Source: Pedobacter borealis DSM 19626
GTDB taxonomy: Bacteria; Bacteroidota; Bacteroidia; Sphingobacteriales; Sphingobacteriaceae
Direction: 5' to 3'
NCBI RefSeq assembly: GCF_000708285.2
Contig: NZ_JAUG01000009.1
Span: 1-64,000, forward strand
DNA: 64,000 nucleotides
Below, piece after piece: positions 3,509-52,650 of the stretch. The position numbers and the translations under genes are program-made. Every line of letters begins with the position of its first letter. The stretch's first letter is position 1. The notes below the pieces were generated by a model that saw only the letters and a list, made by a program, of their open reading frames with translations, did no database searches and was not told the DNA's origin.

Positions 3509-4588
3509 TTAAATAGCCGAGTAAAAATAATCGTAATGTACCAGCGCTTTCTGTTTCTTCTGTCCGATGCGTTCTCTCGCTTTATCTGATCCGTATTCCG
3601 CTATTCCCAATCCTATAAGGTTATTTTCTTCGTCAATAATTTTAATAATATCGCCTTTTAAAAAGTCTGTTTGTATTTCGACAATCCCTACGGGCAATAA
3701 ACTGGTGGCTTTACCGGAGGTTAATACCGTTTTTGCGCCATCGTTTAATTTCACAATGCCTGTTGCGGCAGTTTCAGAGTGGGCAATCCATTTTTTCTTG
3801 CCCGATTTACTTTTTTCGGGAACAAAGCGCGTATGCACCAGTTCATTGTTTAGCAAAGAAGTGAGCACATCATCTTGCGTTCCGTTGGCAATATGGACTG
3901 TGATGCCCAGTTTTGCTACTTTTTGTGCCATGGTCGATTTAGTGATCATACCGCCACGGCCAAATTGCGATTTACCCGTTTGGATAAAGGACGCTAGGTT
4001 AGCAACCGAGCCATTAATTTCCTCAATAACAGCCGATCCTTCAATTTTCGGATCACCATTGTAAATCCCGTTTACATTCGATAGGATAATCAAGGCGTCA
4101 GCATTTAACATCGAAGCAATTAATCCAGCCAGTTCATCATTATCGGTAAACATCAGTTCAGTAACCGAAACTACATCGTTTTCATTCACCACAGGAATTA
4201 CCTCATTTTGAAGCAAAATCTGTAAGCAGTTTTTCATGTTTAAATAATGTGCCCGGTCACGGAAATCTTCTTTGGTAACCAAAACCTGTGCACATTGAAT
4301 TTCATGTGCTGCAAAAAAATTAGCGTAGGTATTAATCAGTTTAACCTGACCAATGGCTGCTAATAATTGTCGGGTAGTTACAGCATCTTGTTTTTCAGAT
4401 ACCTTGATCAAACTTCTGCCTGATGCTACCGCACCCGAAGAAACCAAAATAACCTCAATACCAAGTTTTTTTATATCGGCCAGTTGATTCACAAGGTGTT
4501 TAATCCTTGCTTCATCAGGTAACCCATTCGCCTGTGTAATTACATTCGAACCAACTTTAACAACTATTTTTTTGTACCCTAATTTCAT
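3509..4588 (-). CDS. proB: glutamate 5-kinase ProB, with PUA domain
   Basis: ProB phosphorylates glutamate with ATP, the first and feedback-controlled step of proline synthesis. The amino-acid-kinase domain starts at KIVVKVGSNVIT and includes ILVSSGAVASG, VNENDVVS and FGRGGMITK motifs. The last ~90 residues, beginning KKKWIAHSE, form the PUA domain seen in the long bacterial type. I chose the ATG at 4588 (MKLGYKK) because the upstream ATG at 4600 only adds MKII. ProB precedes proA on the minus strand, consistent with a proBA operon. Confidence 0.95.
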   Translation of the reverse strand: MKLGYKKIVVKVGSNVITQANGLPDEARIKHLVNQLADIKKLGIEVILVSSGAVASGRSLIKVSEKQDAVTTRQLLAAIGQVKLINTYANFFAAHEIQCAQVLVTKEDFRDRAHYLNMKNCLQILLQNEVIPVVNENDVVSVTELMFTDNDELAGLIASMLNADALIILSNVNGIYNGDPKIEGSAVIEEINGSVANLASFIQTGKSQFGRGGMITKSTMAQKVAKLGITVHIANGTQDDVLTSLLNNELVHTRFVPEKSKSGKKKWIAHSETAATGIVKLNDGAKTVLTSGKATSLLPVGIVEIQTDFLKGDIIKIIDEENNLIGLGIAEYGSDKARERIGQKKQKALVHYDYFYSAI

Positions 4589-27465: not shown

Positions 27466-28449
27466 TTAAAACGAAAGTATATCGATTAATTTAAGCCATT
27501 TAGAACTCACTTTTTCAGCATTAATGTGTTTAATGGCATGATCAAAGGGCGTAAAAACAATTTCACGGTTAATCTGGCCAGCCATCACACCGCTTTCGCC
27601 ATTAATTAAACCTTCTACAGCAGCAACACCTAATCTACTGGCCAGCACACGATCCATACAGGTCGGTTTTCCACCACGCTGAATGTGCCCTAAAACTGAA
27701 ACTTTAGTATCGTAATGCGGGTATTTTTCCTGCAGAATTTCGCCAACCTTAAATGCGCCACCGGTATCGTCACCTTCGGCAACGATAATAATTTTCGAGG
27801 CTTTATCTTTACGGCTATGCTCCAGTTTATGCAAAATGTCGTTTGCATTCATGTTTGCTTCCGGAATCATAATGGCTTCGGCACCCACACCAATTCCACT
27901 TCTTAAAGCAATTAACCCAGAGTCGCGGCCCATTACCTCCACTATAAAAAGCCTATCGTGCGATTCGGCCGTATCTCTGATCCTATCCACCGCGTCGATA
28001 ACAGTATTAATGGCAGAGTCGTAACCAATGGTAAAATCTGTTCCCGCTAAATCGTTATCAATAGTGCCAGGCAAACCAACAATTGGGAAATCGAATTCTT
28101 TTGAAAAAATATTTGCGCCTGTAAATGTTCCATCACCACCAATTACAACCAAGGCATCAATTCCATTGGCTTTTAGATTTTCGTAAGCTGTTTTTCTGCC
28201 CTCAACGGTTTTGAAAGCTTCGCTGCGTGCGGTTTTTAAAATGGTTCCTCCGCGCTGAATAATATTCGCTACAGATTTGCGGTCCATAGGGATAAAATCA
28301 TTGTTGATCAGCCCTTCGTACCCACGGATAAACCCGGTTACTTCGATATCATAATAAATTGAGGCTCTTACTACGGCCCTGATTGCGGCATTCATGCCTG
28401 GCGAATCTCCGCCAGAGGTTAAAACACCAATATTCTTAATCTTATTCAT
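27466..28449 (-). CDS. pfkA: ATP-dependent 6-phosphofructokinase
   Basis: 327 residues from the ATG at 28449, which overlaps the last codons of dsbD (ATGAATAA); an ATG at 28482 lies deeper inside dsbD. The enzyme phosphorylates fructose 6-phosphate in glycolysis. The ATP site TSGGDSPGMNAAIR is at 11-24, GGDGTFTG at 104-111, and catalytic Asp131 in PGTIDND. Length and motifs match the bacterial allosteric type. The overlap with dsbD suggests translational coupling to the upstream gene. Confidence 0.97.
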   Translation of the reverse strand: MNKIKNIGVLTSGGDSPGMNAAIRAVVRASIYYDIEVTGFIRGYEGLINNDFIPMDRKSVANIIQRGGTILKTARSEAFKTVEGRKTAYENLKANGIDALVVIGGDGTFTGANIFSKEFDFPIVGLPGTIDNDLAGTDFTIGYDSAINTVIDAVDRIRDTAESHDRLFIVEVMGRDSGLIALRSGIGVGAEAIMIPEANMNANDILHKLEHSRKDKASKIIIVAEGDDTGGAFKVGEILQEKYPHYDTKVSVLGHIQRGGKPTCMDRVLASRLGVAAVEGLINGESGVMAGQINREIVFTPFDHAIKHINAEKVSSKWLKLIDILSF

Positions 28450-30136
28450 TTGTTTGTTTCTTAGCAAATTCTGATAATCCATTGTCCAGATATTGCAAAT
28501 ATTTATCTATATTAAATTCTACTCCGATAGGAGGCGAAACTAATTCTTTTTCATCAGTACCCAAAAGTACATAATATGGTTGCGAAATGGTATTAAATCT
28601 TTCGGCCTGCAAATGTTTAAATTTTTTACCGACCGTATTCACTTTTGTGCCTAAAATTTTAGAATCAAATTGTTCAGCAACTGGTAAATCAGTTTTATCA
28701 TCCGTATAAAGCGACACAACAATATAGTCTTCTTTCAATTTTTTAAGCACTCTCGGGTCAGACCAAACCCTGGCTTCCATTTCTCTACAATTTACACAGC
28801 CATGGCCTGTAAAATCAAGGAATAACGGTTTTTTCACCTCTTTAGCATAAGCAAGTGCTTCCTGGTAATCGAAGAACCCATCAATATTGTGCGGAATGTG
28901 CAGGAATTCTGAATATTTCCGCTTTGGGTGGCTAGGAGTATTGGCTTGACTGGCGCCACCACCATTATCTTGTCCGATTACAAAATCCTGGGTTGACAAA
29001 GGAGGCACCAATGCGCTTACCCCTTTTAAAGGTGCTCCGAATAGTCCTGGCACTAAATATAATGCAAATACGAAAGTTGCTGTTGCAATAAATAATCTCG
29101 TCACAGAAACATAGGGAAGGTCACTGTCGTGAGAGAACTTAATTTTTCCTAGTAAATAAACGCCCAGGATGAAGGCAAGTACAATCCAGATTGCCAGGAA
29201 AATCTCACGGTCTAATATTCCCCAGTGATATGCCAAATCGGCTGTTGAAAGGAATTTTAAAGATAAGCCCAGCTCTAAAAAGCCAAGAAAAACTTTAATT
29301 GAGTTTAACCATCCGCCAGATTTTGGCAATCCCGTCATTAAACTAGGGAAAATGGCAAACATGGTAAAAATTACCGCTAGCGATAATGAGAAACCAAACA
29401 TTACCACAACAGGTGTTAGCAAATCGGTATTAATGGCGACTAAAGAGGTTCCGATCAGTGGACCCGTGCAAGAGAAGGAAACAACCGCTAAGGTTGCTGC
29501 CATGAAAAAGATCCCGCTTAAACCTTTAGCATCCGATTTTGCGTCAAGTTTATTTACAAAGGAACTTGGTAAGGTAATTTCGAAAGCTCCTAAAAATGAT
29601 ACGCCAAAAACAATCAATATAAGAAAGATGAAAATATTAAAAAATCCATCGGTAGATATTTCATTTAATGCACTGGCGCCCCAGATCAAGGTAATAATTA
29701 CGCCTAAACCAACATAAATTACAATGATCGATAAGCCGTAAATAATGGCACTTCTGATTCCTTTTGCTCTGCTTTCGGCTCTTTTGGTAAAAAAACCAAC
29801 AGTAAGCGGAACCATGGGAAAAATACATGGAAGAAAAAAAGCGGCAATACCGGCCAAAAGGCCTAAACCAAGGGTTACCCAAAGCGATTGTTTCGGGGCA
29901 TCCTTACCAGCTACCGCAGCTTTTTCTACTTTGTCTGTATCCTTTTTTAGGGTATCTTTTCCCGTTTTTACCTGGCTATTGGCTGCACTATCCTGTGCAG
30001 AACCTACTTCGGTAAAAACAATATCATCGGGAGGAGCAGTTGCTGTGGTATCTTGTGTTACAATAGCATAACTCTTAACAGCTGGCAATGTGATAAACAT
30101 TGTAGCCATTAACAACAATAATAAAACCTTTTTCAT
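28442..30136 (-). CDS. dsbD: DsbD-type thiol:disulfide reductase, lacking its alpha domain
   Basis: 564 residues with signal peptide, an Asp/Lys-rich linker (about 26-82), then eight membrane helices (about 85-375) carrying the redox Cys104 (FFLPCIFPMVP) and Cys223 (SFSCTGPLIGT), and a C-terminal thioredoxin domain with HGCVNC at 445-450. DsbD passes electrons from cytoplasmic thioredoxin to periplasmic partners. The N-terminal alpha domain of E. coli DsbD is absent; a matching protein is encoded separately at 31265-31729. The start codon of pfkA overlaps its end. Confidence 0.93.
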   Translation of the reverse strand: MKKVLLLLLMATMFITLPAVKSYAIVTQDTTATAPPDDIVFTEVGSAQDSAANSQVKTGKDTLKKDTDKVEKAAVAGKDAPKQSLWVTLGLGLLAGIAAFFLPCIFPMVPLTVGFFTKRAESRAKGIRSAIIYGLSIIVIYVGLGVIITLIWGASALNEISTDGFFNIFIFLILIVFGVSFLGAFEITLPSSFVNKLDAKSDAKGLSGIFFMAATLAVVSFSCTGPLIGTSLVAINTDLLTPVVVMFGFSLSLAVIFTMFAIFPSLMTGLPKSGGWLNSIKVFLGFLELGLSLKFLSTADLAYHWGILDREIFLAIWIVLAFILGVYLLGKIKFSHDSDLPYVSVTRLFIATATFVFALYLVPGLFGAPLKGVSALVPPLSTQDFVIGQDNGGGASQANTPSHPKRKYSEFLHIPHNIDGFFDYQEALAYAKEVKKPLFLDFTGHGCVNCREMEARVWSDPRVLKKLKEDYIVVSLYTDDKTDLPVAEQFDSKILGTKVNTVGKKFKHLQAERFNTISQPYYVLLGTDEKELVSPPIGVEFNIDKYLQYLDNGLSEFAKKQTNE

Positions 30137-30236
30137 TTGTGTGTTTTGTGTGTGTATTTTTTGAAACCGTGAAATTAAGAATAATTTTAGAAACGATTTT
30201 TTTTAAACCACCACACCACGTAGATTTTACTTTAAA

Positions 30237-30270
30237 AAGAAACACTCCCGAAAATTCGGAACTGTTTCTT
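30237..30270 (-). terminator. terminator after the XRE regulator gene
   Basis: The arms AAGAAACA / TGTTTCTT with inner TTCCGAA/TTCGG pairing lie 24 bases past the regulator's stop codon. On the minus strand a short T-run follows. Confidence 0.7.
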
Positions 30271-30293
30271 TTGCTTGACTTTATATATTTTGT

Positions 30294-30716
30294 TTACTTT
30301 TCAACTGCTATATTTCTTAATTTCTCCTCTAATTCAATAATGTGTCTTTCTTGCTGAAGAATTATCTTATTCATTAAATCAAATTCTCTTGCCGAAATAG
30401 TTATCTTATCTGCATTTACATCATTATTATCCAGTTTTTTACTTTTATCTCCATCATTAATAAAAACCTCAATGGGTTTATCTAAAATGTTAGCTATTTT
30501 AATTAAACGTTCGATAGAAATTTTAACCTCGCCAGCCTCTATTTTTTGATAAGCACTTTGCCCAATACCTAGTTCATTTGCGACATAAGCTTGGGTATAA
30601 CACTTCTCGTCTCTATACTTGCGAATATCTTCACCAGATATAAATTTTAACTCGTTTCGGGTTAGAATTTGCTCGTTTTTAAAAGCATTGCGCAGATTTT
30701 CTGATTTTAAACTCAT
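30294..30716 (-). CDS. XRE-type HTH regulator with leader-peptide-like N-terminus
   Basis: 140 residues. The XRE helix-turn-helix spans about 29-87 (YTQAYVANELGIGQSAYQKI). Residues 105-140 form a probable coiled coil for dimerisation (ILQQERHIIELEEKLRNI). Residues 1-29 are not part of the fold and match the leader of the divergent peptide gene: AFKNEQILTRNELKFISGE against AFQKGEVLTRAQLKKVMGG, 8 of 19 identical and in register. The Gly-Gly processing site is changed to Gly-Glu. A 34-bp palindrome lies just upstream, the probable operator. The inferred job is repressor of the divergent peptide gene and of itself. Confidence 0.85.
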   Translation of the reverse strand: MSLKSENLRNAFKNEQILTRNELKFISGEDIRKYRDEKCYTQAYVANELGIGQSAYQKIEAGEVKISIERLIKIANILDKPIEVFINDGDKSKKLDNNDVNADKITISAREFDLMNKIILQQERHIIELEEKLRNIAVEK

Positions 30717-30740
30717 GACTTAAAATTAATCTGTTTTTGT

Positions 30741-30774
30741 TTATTAATTGGAATAAATTTATTCCAATTAATAA
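30741..30774. promoter_or_regulatory. 34-bp perfect palindrome, probable operator
   Basis: The left arm at 30741-30757 and right arm at 30758-30774 are exact inverse complements (half-site TTATTAATTGGAATAAA). It lies 25 bases upstream of the regulator start and about 100 upstream of the peptide gene. Size, symmetry and position fit binding of an XRE dimer or tetramer. Confidence 0.7.
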
Positions 30775-30838
30775 TAAATTGATTCATGTTTAGCATAAAG
30801 CTATTCTCATAAAAATAGCTGATTTATCTCTGTCTGTT

Positions 30839-30846
30839 TACCTTTA
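30839..30846 (+). promoter_or_regulatory. putative -7 box of the peptide gene (TACCTTTA)
   Basis: One mismatch to TAnnTTTG, 27 bases before the ATG at 30874. Confidence 0.4.
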
Positions 30847-30873
30847 TAACAGTTTAAATCTTAAAAAATAACA

Positions 30874-31113
30874 ATGAAAAAGTTAACTTTAACATCACCA
30901 GCCTTTCAGAAAGGCGAAGTGCTAACTAGAGCACAATTGAAAAAAGTAATGGGTGGGGTAGGTAGTGGAGGAAGTGATGACGCTTGCTCTTCACAGTGCC
31001 TCGCTATTGGTAGTCACTGTGGAACAGCTGAAAATCCAGGCACATGTGGCTGGGTATCAGACGCAAATTGCCCTGGCGGAGGCTTCGGTATGTGTTTTAT
31101 TCCATTTGGATAG
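30874..31113 (+). CDS. double-glycine leader peptide with six cysteines (bacteriocin-like)
   Basis: 79 residues. The leader (1-28) is of the Bacteroidota natural-product type, with EVLTRAQLKKVMGG ending in the Gly27-Gly28 site that C39 peptidase/ABC exporters cut. The 51-residue core is Gly/Ser/Cys-rich, with cysteines at 38, 41, 49, 58, 66 and 74 and little charge. Six cysteines fit three disulfides or thioether-type changes; no modifying enzyme, exporter or immunity gene is adjacent. It lies divergent from the XRE regulator and between two DsbD-related genes. Activity unknown. Confidence 0.82.
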   Translation: MKKLTLTSPAFQKGEVLTRAQLKKVMGGVGSGGSDDACSSQCLAIGSHCGTAENPGTCGWVSDANCPGGGFGMCFIPFG

Positions 31114-31233
31114 TCCTTCAATATATGCATGATTACTATTGAAGACTTTATATTAGTGTTAGTCTAATGCGTTCCAAAATGATGGCTTTATATCAAAATA
31201 GGGACAAGTTTTACACAATCATTAGTTAAAAAA

Positions 31234-31258
31234 GAAAGCTCTCGAATCGAGAGCTTTC
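31234..31258 (-). terminator. terminator after the DsbD alpha-domain gene
   Basis: The perfect arms GAAAGCTCTCGA / TCGAGAGCTTTC are followed on the minus strand by TTTTTT. The 120 bases between the peptide gene and this hairpin hold nothing recognisable. Confidence 0.85.
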
Positions 31259-31264
31259 AAATCA

Positions 31265-31729
31265 TTATTGCTTTTTCTTATCTTTAACTGGAATACTAAA
31301 CTCTACCTCTTCTGGTGGAAGACACTGTTTATCGTTACAAACCATAAACTCTACCTTGCCTTTAACAGCTGTTATACCTTTATTTAATTTTACTTTTTGC
31401 GTAAAAATTACCGCTTTTTCGAAATAACTTACGTTCATTTTAAAAGTGCTTTCGTATTTAACAATTGCTTTTGGCTCGATTGTTTTGCCAACAAGGCTAA
31501 AATCTTTGGAAGGTGCAAAAGTAAATGTAGTTTTTACCGGGCCACCGTCTTTCACATTTTGCGAATAGATATGCCATCTATCCTCGATTGTCGCCTTTAA
31601 ATATACAATTGCTTCATCTTTGCTAATTTTCTCTGCATAATAAGCCCAGGTAACCGGTTTTTCGATTTGGGCAAATGCACCGGCGATGGTAAAAAGTACC
31701 ATCGAAAGCACTAGTGTGATTTTTTTCAT
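31265..31729 (-). CDS. stand-alone DsbD alpha domain protein
   Basis: 154 residues from the ATG at 31729; a longer frame from 31759 would run into birA. Signal peptide to about residue 20 (FTIAGAFAQ). The rest is the immunoglobulin-like N-terminal domain of DsbD, with cysteines C121 and C126 in CNDKQCLPPE, the pair that in E. coli DsbD hands electrons to periplasmic partners. It complements the truncated dsbD at 28442-30136. The XRE/peptide island separates the two. It starts 8 bases after birA ends on the same strand. Confidence 0.9.
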   Translation of the reverse strand: MKKITLVLSMVLFTIAGAFAQIEKPVTWAYYAEKISKDEAIVYLKATIEDRWHIYSQNVKDGGPVKTTFTFAPSKDFSLVGKTIEPKAIVKYESTFKMNVSYFEKAVIFTQKVKLNKGITAVKGKVEFMVCNDKQCLPPEEVEFSIPVKDKKKQ

Positions 31730-31736
31730 TATGTGT

Positions 31737-32513
31737 TTATTTTGTGTGTGTAAATTCAATTTCTTTAAAATTAAAGACTTTTAAGCCATTCTTTGTATCA
31801 ACCGTTAGCCTACCATCATCTTCAACTCCTGTTATAGTACCTTCAAAAACCGCTCCATTTTGCATATACAACGCTGGAATGTTAAAGTTGTAAAGCCTTG
31901 AAAGGTAATCATTTTGTAAAATACTATATTTTCCAGTCCTCAAAATTAAGTAGTATTTTTCCATAAATATGAATAATTTATCCATAATATCCATTAAAAA
32001 CACATCTCTTTGTAAAATTTGAATGACTGAAGTAGCACGTTGGCTAATACTATCCGAAAATTCGGATTGATTAATATTTAAACCAATGCCAATTACTGAT
32101 GATTTAATAGAATTGCCTGTCAGTGTATTTTCGATTAATATTCCGCCTAATTTCTTATTTTGGTAATACATATCATTAGGCCATTTTACTTTTACCCCTT
32201 CTGGTACAAAGCAAGATAAAGCATCACTAACGGCTAAACTAACGGCCATATTTAAATAAAACTGTTTATTAAGTGGCAAAAAAGAAGGTTTTAAATAAAT
32301 GCTTGTACTTATATTTTTCCCTGCCTGCGTTTCCCAAACGCTTTCCTGCTGTCCTCTTCCGGCAAACTGATTATCTGCCATAATTACAGTCCCTTCGGCT
32401 AATGGCTCGGATTTTGACACCAAATCTTTTAAAAAGTTATTAGTAGAATCAACTTCTTTTAATTTGATTAAATTTTGACCAACAAATAGTGTCGAAAAAG
32501 TGTTATTTTGCAA
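31737..32513 (-). CDS. birA: biotin--protein ligase BirA
   Basis: 258 residues. It activates biotin with ATP and attaches it to carboxylase carrier domains. The catalytic domain shows EVDSTNNFLKD near 20-30, the biotinyl-AMP loop GRGQQ at 52-56, KWPNDMYYQNKKLGGILIE near 110-128 and IGIGLNIN near 141-148. A C-terminal SH3-like cap ends it. There is no N-terminal DNA-binding domain, so it is not a biotin repressor. It is divergent from rsfS, with only a 44-base gap. Confidence 0.94.
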   Translation of the reverse strand: MQNNTFSTLFVGQNLIKLKEVDSTNNFLKDLVSKSEPLAEGTVIMADNQFAGRGQQESVWETQAGKNISTSIYLKPSFLPLNKQFYLNMAVSLAVSDALSCFVPEGVKVKWPNDMYYQNKKLGGILIENTLTGNSIKSSVIGIGLNINQSEFSDSISQRATSVIQILQRDVFLMDIMDKLFIFMEKYYLILRTGKYSILQNDYLSRLYNFNIPALYMQNGAVFEGTITGVEDDGRLTVDTKNGLKVFNFKEIEFTHTK

Positions 32514-52219: not shown

Positions 52220-52255
52220 TCCTGATGTAAGTTCTTAACTTTATTTTTCATCAAC

Positions 52256-52440
52256 CGATACAGGTTCCCGGAATACAACCGGGATTAATAGGGAATCGTG
52301 TGCAAATCACGAGCTGTCGCGCAACTGTAAATTCTGTCTTTTGTTAAAAAAGACAACGGTCATATCATTCATGCCACTGTGCCGTTTACCGGGATGGGAA
52401 GGCGATAAGATCGGGAATAAGTCAGGAGACCTGCCTATAT
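52256..52440 (+). ncRNA. cobalamin (B12) riboswitch
   Basis: The cobalamin aptamer landmarks are in order: ACAGGTTCCCGG start with AACCGGGATTAATAGGGAA, GTGCAAATCACG, the GCGCAACTGTAA core, the B12 box GCCACTG at 52373-52379, and the closing GGGAAGGCGATAAG...GTCAGGAGACCTGCC. It lies 211 bases before metE on the same strand. Known logic: with B12 bound, expression of the B12-independent synthase is shut off. The expression platform between 52440 and 52650 is not clear to me. Confidence 0.93.
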
Positions 52441-52650
52441 TGAATTGACGGTGCTTTCGCGTTATAAAGTAATTGGTCAGGTATGATTGTACACCATAAA
52501 ATTAACCATTTTATATGCTTGCTTTAAGCTTTTTGCTGATGAGTAGGCTGTTTGTGCGCTAACCTTTCCTTTTTTATTTCTAACAAAAAACATTATAAAA
52601 TATTGCTTTAAGGGCTTTTAAACGATTTATTTACTTAATCTTTAAAAGAG

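Follow-up and report, generated by a model that had tools for sequence, protein, structure and literature searches.

The window analyzed here is the whole 64,000-nucleotide (nt) stretch at positions 1 to 64,000 of contig NZ_JAUG01000009.1 of Pedobacter borealis DSM 19626 (assembly GCF_000708285.2), and the system in question is a divergent pair of genes in it. A Cro/C1-type (HTH_3) regulator of 140 residues is encoded at 30294..30716 on the minus strand; opposite it, at 30874..31113 on the plus strand, lies the gene for a 79-residue double-glycine (GG)-leader peptide precursor with six Cys in its core. The leader of the peptide, MKKLTLTSPAFQKGEVLTRAQLKKVMGG, has 28 residues (30874..30957, plus strand), and ends in GG. 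The regulator carries a leader-mimic arm (residues 11–29; 30630..30686, minus strand), with GE where the leader has GG, followed by the helix-turn-helix (HTH) domain and a C-terminal helix (residues 109–139 in the structural model). The core of the arm, LTRNELKFISGE, comprises residues 18–29 (30630–30665, minus strand), corresponding to leader positions -12 to -1. The translation contains no Met between the start and the HTH, hence, the arm belongs to an ATG-started HTH protein. In NCBIfam and Pfam searches, the regulator matches Pfam HTH_3 at residues 31–84 with 53.8 bits (gathering score 23), passes the cut-off for two general HTH models (HTH_3 and HTH_19), and reaches it for no NCBIfam family; the peptide matches no family in either database. 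The peptide conforms to the pattern L-12, E/Q-8, L/M-7, V/I-4, and GG at -2/-1 (LTRAQLKKVMGG).

The ungapped alignment of regulator residues 11–29 with peptide residues 10–28 shows 8/19 identities (A, F, LTR, LK, G). With BLOSUM62, the best ungapped segment reaches a score of 42, whereas shuffled regulator N-termini (residues 1–40) give 15.5±3.0, with a maximum of 31 in 2000 shuffles (p=0.0005, the floor of the test), and the same test over the whole regulator protein yields p=0.001. An earlier note on this DNA, made from the sequence alone, had described this alignment and the replacement of GG by GE, and both, together with the open reading frames (ORFs), are recovered; it had also named non-significance against shuffled N-termini as grounds for abandoning the idea, which the above scores do not provide. 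Its placement of the segment ahead of the HTH agrees with the start of the HTH_3 match and with the model, where the first HTH helix begins at residue 28. Its view of the likeness as shared protein sequence and not a recent DNA copy also holds: the 36-nt DNA cores of the arm and the leader have 19/36 identical bases, and codon agreement (below) shows the same.

The AlphaFold model of the regulator (12 sequences, mean predicted local distance difference test score, pLDDT, 74) assigns pLDDT below 50 to residues 1–11, and mean values of 44, 61, and 66 to residues 1–10, 11–20, and 21–30, respectively. One short helix (residues 20–24) falls within the leader core, the rest of residues 1–27 being mostly of low confidence; an N-terminus modeled in this way would fit a separate arm of undefined structure. 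A Cys at residue 39 (window 30600–30602), in the ..RDEKC.. context, is invariant in 16/16 aligned regulators, with a possible redox or structural role.

Leader-likeness was also measured by models not built on the window pair alone. Run against the six-frame genome, the leader profile places three GG peptides on top (expectation value, E, 5.5e-9 to 1.2e-7), these three being among the 19 leaders that built the profile; in fourth place (E 0.22) comes a regulator arm, that of a paralog on contig C7. A leader matrix, derived from the first ten core positions of 19 peptide leaders with GG left out, was applied to 54 distinct XRE frames; two family frames (L027, L031) escaped the HTH pattern of the script. 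The pattern caught 18 family frames, of which 15 score 6.2–24.8 bits; the exceptions are G066 (2.9), G103 C110 (-5.5), and G117, which is unscored as its frame begins past the arm. The top score is 3.5 bits among the 36 other XRE frames, and 5.8 bits for an unrelated class-level XRE frame; exclusion of each pair's own leader alters the scores little. The NCBI leader model NF047798 recognizes 7/16 regulator N-termini at E<=1 (best 6.7e-5) and 0/10 control XRE N-termini, the controls being hand-picked from the matrix run. In the window regulator it covers residues 13–27 (E 0.14, 12.4 bits), the sole match of this N-terminus, below the curated cut-off of 23.5. As judged by these sequence comparisons, the regulator N-terminus is a leader mimic.

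The arrangement recurs in the genus. Across 145 genomes of the genus, the regulator profile A1 has 18 matches of at least 139 bits, in 14 genomes; it was built from 16 family members, which score high by construction, although most had initially been detected with just the window protein as the query. The next matches, at most 88 bits, are two truncated arm-bearing family members (both in G065) and two ordinary XREs. Of the family loci in a named collection, 12/13 are labeled Pedobacter and 1/13 Sphingobacteriaceae. All 18 high scorers have a GG-leader ORF opposite the regulator, two of these ORFs looking broken (in G026 C1, with a stop shortly past the leader, and in G117), and in 17/18 the HTH is preceded by a leader-like sequence; in 15 of these cases, the frame is unbroken and has a start. 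In G117 a stop codon separates the arm from the HTH (L022, around 1504), and in G123, a metagenome assembly, an apparent frameshift lies upstream of the arm (L097, around 3940–4010). Two consecutive XRE genes are found in G103 C110 (L095:4001–4695), the second of which, immediately downstream of the first, has LSANEMKAFKPH and keeps LSANEMK. The length of the arm–HTH junction varies across the family. Contig C7 of the same genome as the window (L009, 7394–9036) contains two more tandem divergent pairs, whose regulators start with MDTKKLTRSEMKQIFCG... and, in the degenerate one, MNVRKLSRSEIKQISCG..., with a GG-leader peptide gene opposite each; these tandem pairs are the product of duplication and decay of the module. 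A match to the Rfam group-II-D1D4-2 intron (L022:124–242, minus strand, 79.1 bits) lies close to the G117 module.

Beyond the genus, no high-scoring relative is seen among 399 family, 395 phylum, and 395 class genomes (overlapping samples with some genus members in, the top candidates per genome being scored), and class-, phylum-, and family-level relatives with readable loci have no arm on their N-termini. One scan of IMG/VR yields no high-scoring relative; plasmid and phage matches (six and three records) are distant HTH proteins, mostly from Clostridioides, with N-termini left uncompared. In a search for other leader-tagged regulators near the 29 leader loci L123–L151, only the known regulator family and further GG peptides score above 11 bits. 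The earlier note had suggested a search for arm-bearing XREs beside GG-leader genes in other Bacteroidota, and had taken homologous regulators with no leader peptide nearby as evidence to the contrary: the association holds in 18/18 cases within the genus, with no such solitary regulator among the high-scoring relatives, while the wider Bacteroidota yield no arm-bearing XRE in the sampled searches.

Arms resemble the leaders of their own neighbors more than those of other pairs. For 18 pairs, the 12-residue BLOSUM sum of each arm with its own leader is 533, compared with 474±15 for shuffled pairings (p=5e-5, the floor); with longer stretches, p=8.5e-4 (20 residues) and p=3.7e-3 (28 residues). 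This set differs from the 18 high scorers: it includes the degenerate regulators G000 C7b, G065 C8, and G065 C5b, and omits the near-duplicate G027b as well as G026 C1 and G117, whose peptide ORFs are broken; G075 has two peptides and is represented by the nearer one. With G000 C7b and G065 C8 also removed, 16 pairs remain, for which p is 2e-4, or 0.002 if pairings are shuffled only within long- and short-leader classes. Off-diagonal arm–leader similarity is independent of HTH identity (r=-0.03), unlike what vertical inheritance alone would give. Codons at identical residues agree in 49/103 cases (0.48) for own pairs and in 713/1520 (0.47) for other pairs. Recent DNA duplication or gene conversion was rejected as the origin of the likeness, since there is no codon excess and the nucleotide test gives 368 for own pairs vs 356.9±8.1 (p=0.09). 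With moderate confidence, we read the own-neighbor preference in the absence of a codon signal as selection on the protein sequence.

The arms keep the residues by which leaders are recognized, and mostly lose the cut site. In a set of 20 arms (including three degenerate regulators, G117, G123, G026 C1, and the second XRE of G103 C110, and omitting G027b and the first XRE of G103 C110), a hydrophobic residue occupies position -12 in 20/20, -7 in 17/20, and -4 in 19/20 arms; E, D, or Q is found at -8 in 19/20, and K or R at -6 in 20/20. GG is retained in five arms, three of them in intact-looking regulators (G084, G046, G057), and GA or GS in none. The window arm has L, L, and I at -12, -7, and -4, with GE at the cut site. 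According to the LahT and PCAT1 reports (PMC6363468, PMC6959990), the leader residues at -12, -7, and -4 pack against a hydrophobic groove in the C39 protease domain; processing or binding suffers from a charged residue at -7 or -4 and from most substitutions at -12; and the cut site lies in a narrow cleft. As these three positions are kept and GG is mostly absent, the arm looks bindable by C39, but mostly uncuttable.

The regulator probably binds between the two genes. A perfect 34-bp palindrome at 30741..30774, with the core GGAATAAATTTATTCC at 30750–30765, is the putative operator; the exact core is found once in the 5.5-Mb genome. A putative second half-site, GATTC (30781..30785), lies at the offset where 13/20 loci have ATTC or ATGC, a count that carries no chance estimate; this arrangement is one that two adjacent dimers would want. 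The intergenic regions are 139–281 nt long (20 loci). The class of the recognition helix matches the class of the palindrome-like site in 18/18 tabulated loci, with classes set by eye after the data were seen and not independent of ancestry: QSAY..K helices occur with GGAAT...ATTCC-like sites (9 loci), QSTYQR helices with GCATAA..TTATGC-like sites (5 loci), and QSTY.K helices with GAATAATTTTATTC (4 loci). Given this agreement, the regulator very probably acts on its own promoter and that of the peptide; the sign of control would be repression, given its position and family. A wide regulon was considered and rejected, none being evident: the pattern GGAATNNATTNATTCC with at most one mismatch has 7 forward matches vs 12 for the reversed control.

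The two genes are gained or lost as a unit. They occupy an insertion of about 1 kb that contains just this pair (30265..31282, approximate, ends from alignment with empty sites), between a dsbD-like gene (28442–30136, minus strand) and a small gene (31265–31759, minus strand), both flanking genes being named by eye from their translations. In nine relatives (L183–L190, L192), the aligned ends of the flanking genes are about 127–153 bp apart, compared with about 1.13 kb in the window; the more distant loci L191 and L193–L196, without clean measurement, are outside the nine. Alignment with three empty sites (L183–L185) places the insertion after a hairpin at 30235–30272. G066 has an empty site at this locus, and yet such a pair elsewhere in its genome. 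The empty sites in relatives thus indicate gain or loss of the whole pair. The insertion contains neither a modifying enzyme nor an exporter gene. Another hairpin (arms 31234–31245 and 31247–31258) is located near its far end.

What reads the arm can be approached from the distribution of the leader. Leader-profile matches occur in at least 68/145 genus genomes, and arm-family regulators in 14/145; the leader, being far more widespread, is evidently shaped by another reader, such as an exporter, with the regulator as the mimic. The earlier note had inferred that whatever binds the leader (a C39 peptidase, modifying enzyme, or exporter) might also bind the repressor and couple peptide load to repression. 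As the insertion has neither a modifying enzyme nor an exporter and the positions read by C39 are kept, a C39 exporter encoded elsewhere appears to be the best candidate for the partner of the arm. The genome has five C39 matches, none adjoining the pairs. At L118:10728–10967 and L120:9263–9490, C39 and HlyD-like secretion genes, candidate exporters, lie near GG ORFs of other leader types.

These considerations suggest the following mechanism. The Cro/C1-type repressor would bind the intergenic palindrome and control both divergent promoters. Its arm would keep the helix read by the C39 domains of peptidase-containing ATP-binding cassette transporters (PCATs), mostly without the cut site, and so could act as an uncleavable pseudo-substrate. 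With the exporter idle, the C39 domain would hold the repressor by its arm and the peptide gene would be on; with precursors filling the C39 domains, the repressor would be displaced and return to the operator, switching synthesis off. Such a switch suggests sensing of the load on the export machine. We infer C39 as the partner and competition as the signal; the comparison of sequences itself establishes the arm, its recurrence, its likeness to the neighbor's leader, the loss of GG, and the operator/helix match. We favor, tentatively and with slightly more doubt than belief, a two-gene module in which a pseudo-substrate arm docking on the exporter C39 domain couples repression to export capacity. 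The broader statement is held somewhat more hesitantly still: that this is a new type of control, in which a repressor carries the leader of its target peptide as uncleavable C39 bait, export occupancy sets transcription, and the two genes travel together as an insertion, the arm adapting to the leader.

Several observations weigh against this coupling to export. No C39 gene is present inside the insertion, and the small GG ORFs beside the C39 genes of the genome have other leader types, although two of them share similar hydrophobic spacing. The C7 regulator ranks the leader of its own neighbor 16th of 18, and the window regulator ranks its own leader 6th over 12 residues, although 1st over 20. 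Of the nearest-relative tests, both weak, one gives 11:3 (p=0.057), and the other, against the regulator of the nearest relative, is flat at 8:7; pair-specific matching is thus shown moderately, not strongly. The residue at position -7 is polar or charged in 3/20 arms, the five GG-bearing arms might be cut by C39, and the first regulator of G103 C110 retains just the end of the arm. E-8, also conserved in the arms, is dispensable in LahT (PMC6363468), and K-6 is conserved like the C39 contacts, yet the available portions of the two reports (PMC6363468, PMC6959990) name no contact for it.

Among other explanations, antirepression in the manner of SinI dispenses with the exporter: the precursor, or the leader remaining in the cytoplasm after C39 cleavage, would bind the regulator itself, either pairing with its arm or displacing it, and the peptide would thus signal its own synthesis directly. 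A sequence common to the small partner and the regulator arm, together with the own-neighbor preference, agrees with this, and Foldseek ranks 1b0n, an entry for the SinR/SinI complex, first for the model, though via the common HTH fold. However, 22/29 leader loci (L123–L151) have no arm-bearing regulator within about 1.5 kb, so regulator binding is not what determines the leader sequence; in addition, the C-terminal helix would account better for dimerization, and the arm lies outside the confident HTH of the model, which is weak there. We consider this unlikely, though worth retaining. Alternatively, the arm may be a relic of a leader-coding 5' end fused to an XRE gene, now serving as a structural or DNA-contacting extension with no reader of the leader; the arm of the lambda repressor is the comparison for an extension in contact with DNA. 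The severed arms of G117 (stop) and G123 (apparent frameshift) and the nearly lost arm of G103 C110 show that the arm is not indispensable, and the family is found, in the sampled searches, in one genus only, both in line with a relic. On the other hand, leader positions are kept though the codons show no shared history, arms track the leader of their own neighbor, and the junction to the HTH is variable in length, which leaves this origin improbable in our opinion.

A third kind of explanation treats the arm as a true substrate: a C39 exporter would cut or export the repressor, and its removal would open the promoter, secreted anti-regulators of flagella being the model for export-dependent removal of a regulator. 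The GG of five arms, including those of the three intact-looking regulators, is what this predicts; the other 15/20 arms, that of the window among them, lack GG, and the narrow LahT/PCAT1 cleft, as far as the available descriptions go, would make GE, CG, AE, SC, SY, and similar pairs poor sites, so that we give this little credence. Chance, or convergence on a short motif in the form of a basic amphipathic helix ahead of the HTH, might be invoked for a short segment where the window pair alone offers 8/19 identities, but recurrence, the control XREs, and the independent leader model refute it as far as sequence can, and we regard it as highly improbable.

Many GG-peptide genes of the genus are also preceded by a structured element in the 5' untranslated region (L208–L230, e.g., L208:1436–1567:+; also L018, L022, L023, L014, and L028). 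It has two hairpins, the second usually with a GCGTGA loop, and a third conserved hairpin upstream, GGGGCAGC...CTGCCCC, is seen in the alignment only. In 19 sequences, from which the two-hairpin structure was itself drawn, changes on both sides occur in 14/14 pairs. Pairing holds in 80.5% of cells, compared with 61.4±1.9 for shuffles, and covariation scores 0.618, whereas sliding yields no more than 0.297. The model, which includes these 19, finds 74 places in 41/145 genomes; among the matches listed, 61/74 precede one of 150 leader matches by at most 29 nt (median 25), and 13 do not. Rfam at gathering gives no match to the element in nine sources, some of them without the element, and at E<=1 gives four matches in six loci, none overlapping the element; the genome of the window has no such element at E<=0.01. 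The element is a candidate riboswitch or translational regulator. A cobalamin riboswitch is present elsewhere in the window (52245–52452, plus strand, 101.8 bits).

The window regulator shares the HTH_3 domain with Cro/C1-type (XRE) repressors such as those of 434 and lambda, SinR, RstR, and restriction-control C proteins, and resembles 434, SinR, and C proteins in its fold (in the model); further parallels with such repressors are the palindrome, a putative operator, between the divergent genes and, in 13/20 loci, the putative half-site at a fixed offset. Unlike them, it has a double-glycine leader mimic preceding the HTH. The partner peptides have L-12, E/Q-8, L/M-7, and GG, as do GG-leader peptides exported by PCATs, and at E<=1, 12/18 of them touch TIGR04149 and 10/18 NF047798; the arm differs from PCAT substrates in being mostly without GG and followed by a DNA-binding domain instead of a core peptide. 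SinR/SinI likewise combines an XRE repressor and a small partner with a common sequence stretch, but the common part here appears to be an N-terminal export leader, and not C-terminal oligomerization helices. As for export-coupled regulators of the FlgM type, expression here too would follow the state of the export machine; the exporter, however, would be of another class and, with most arms lacking the cut site, the regulator would be retained by it rather than exported.

The family searches made return no curated family with this architecture, and a literature search, mostly outside the reach of subscription journals, returns no description of a leader-tagged XRE; HTH genes near loci of ribosomally synthesized and post-translationally modified peptides are mentioned, with no leader arm in the available portions of these papers (PMC8939145, PMC10352776). 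The system would count as export-coupled regulation, by a route that we know from no other system. To our knowledge, the matching of peptide synthesis to export capacity has been worked out mainly for cases in which sensor kinases or peptide receptors are responsible. In the present case, two genes appear to suffice as a module that matches synthesis to export via one short motif common to the cargo and the repressor, which suggests portable feedback switches for peptide production. If true, this would be a rare instance of a transcription factor that bears the same targeting signal as the product of the gene it controls.
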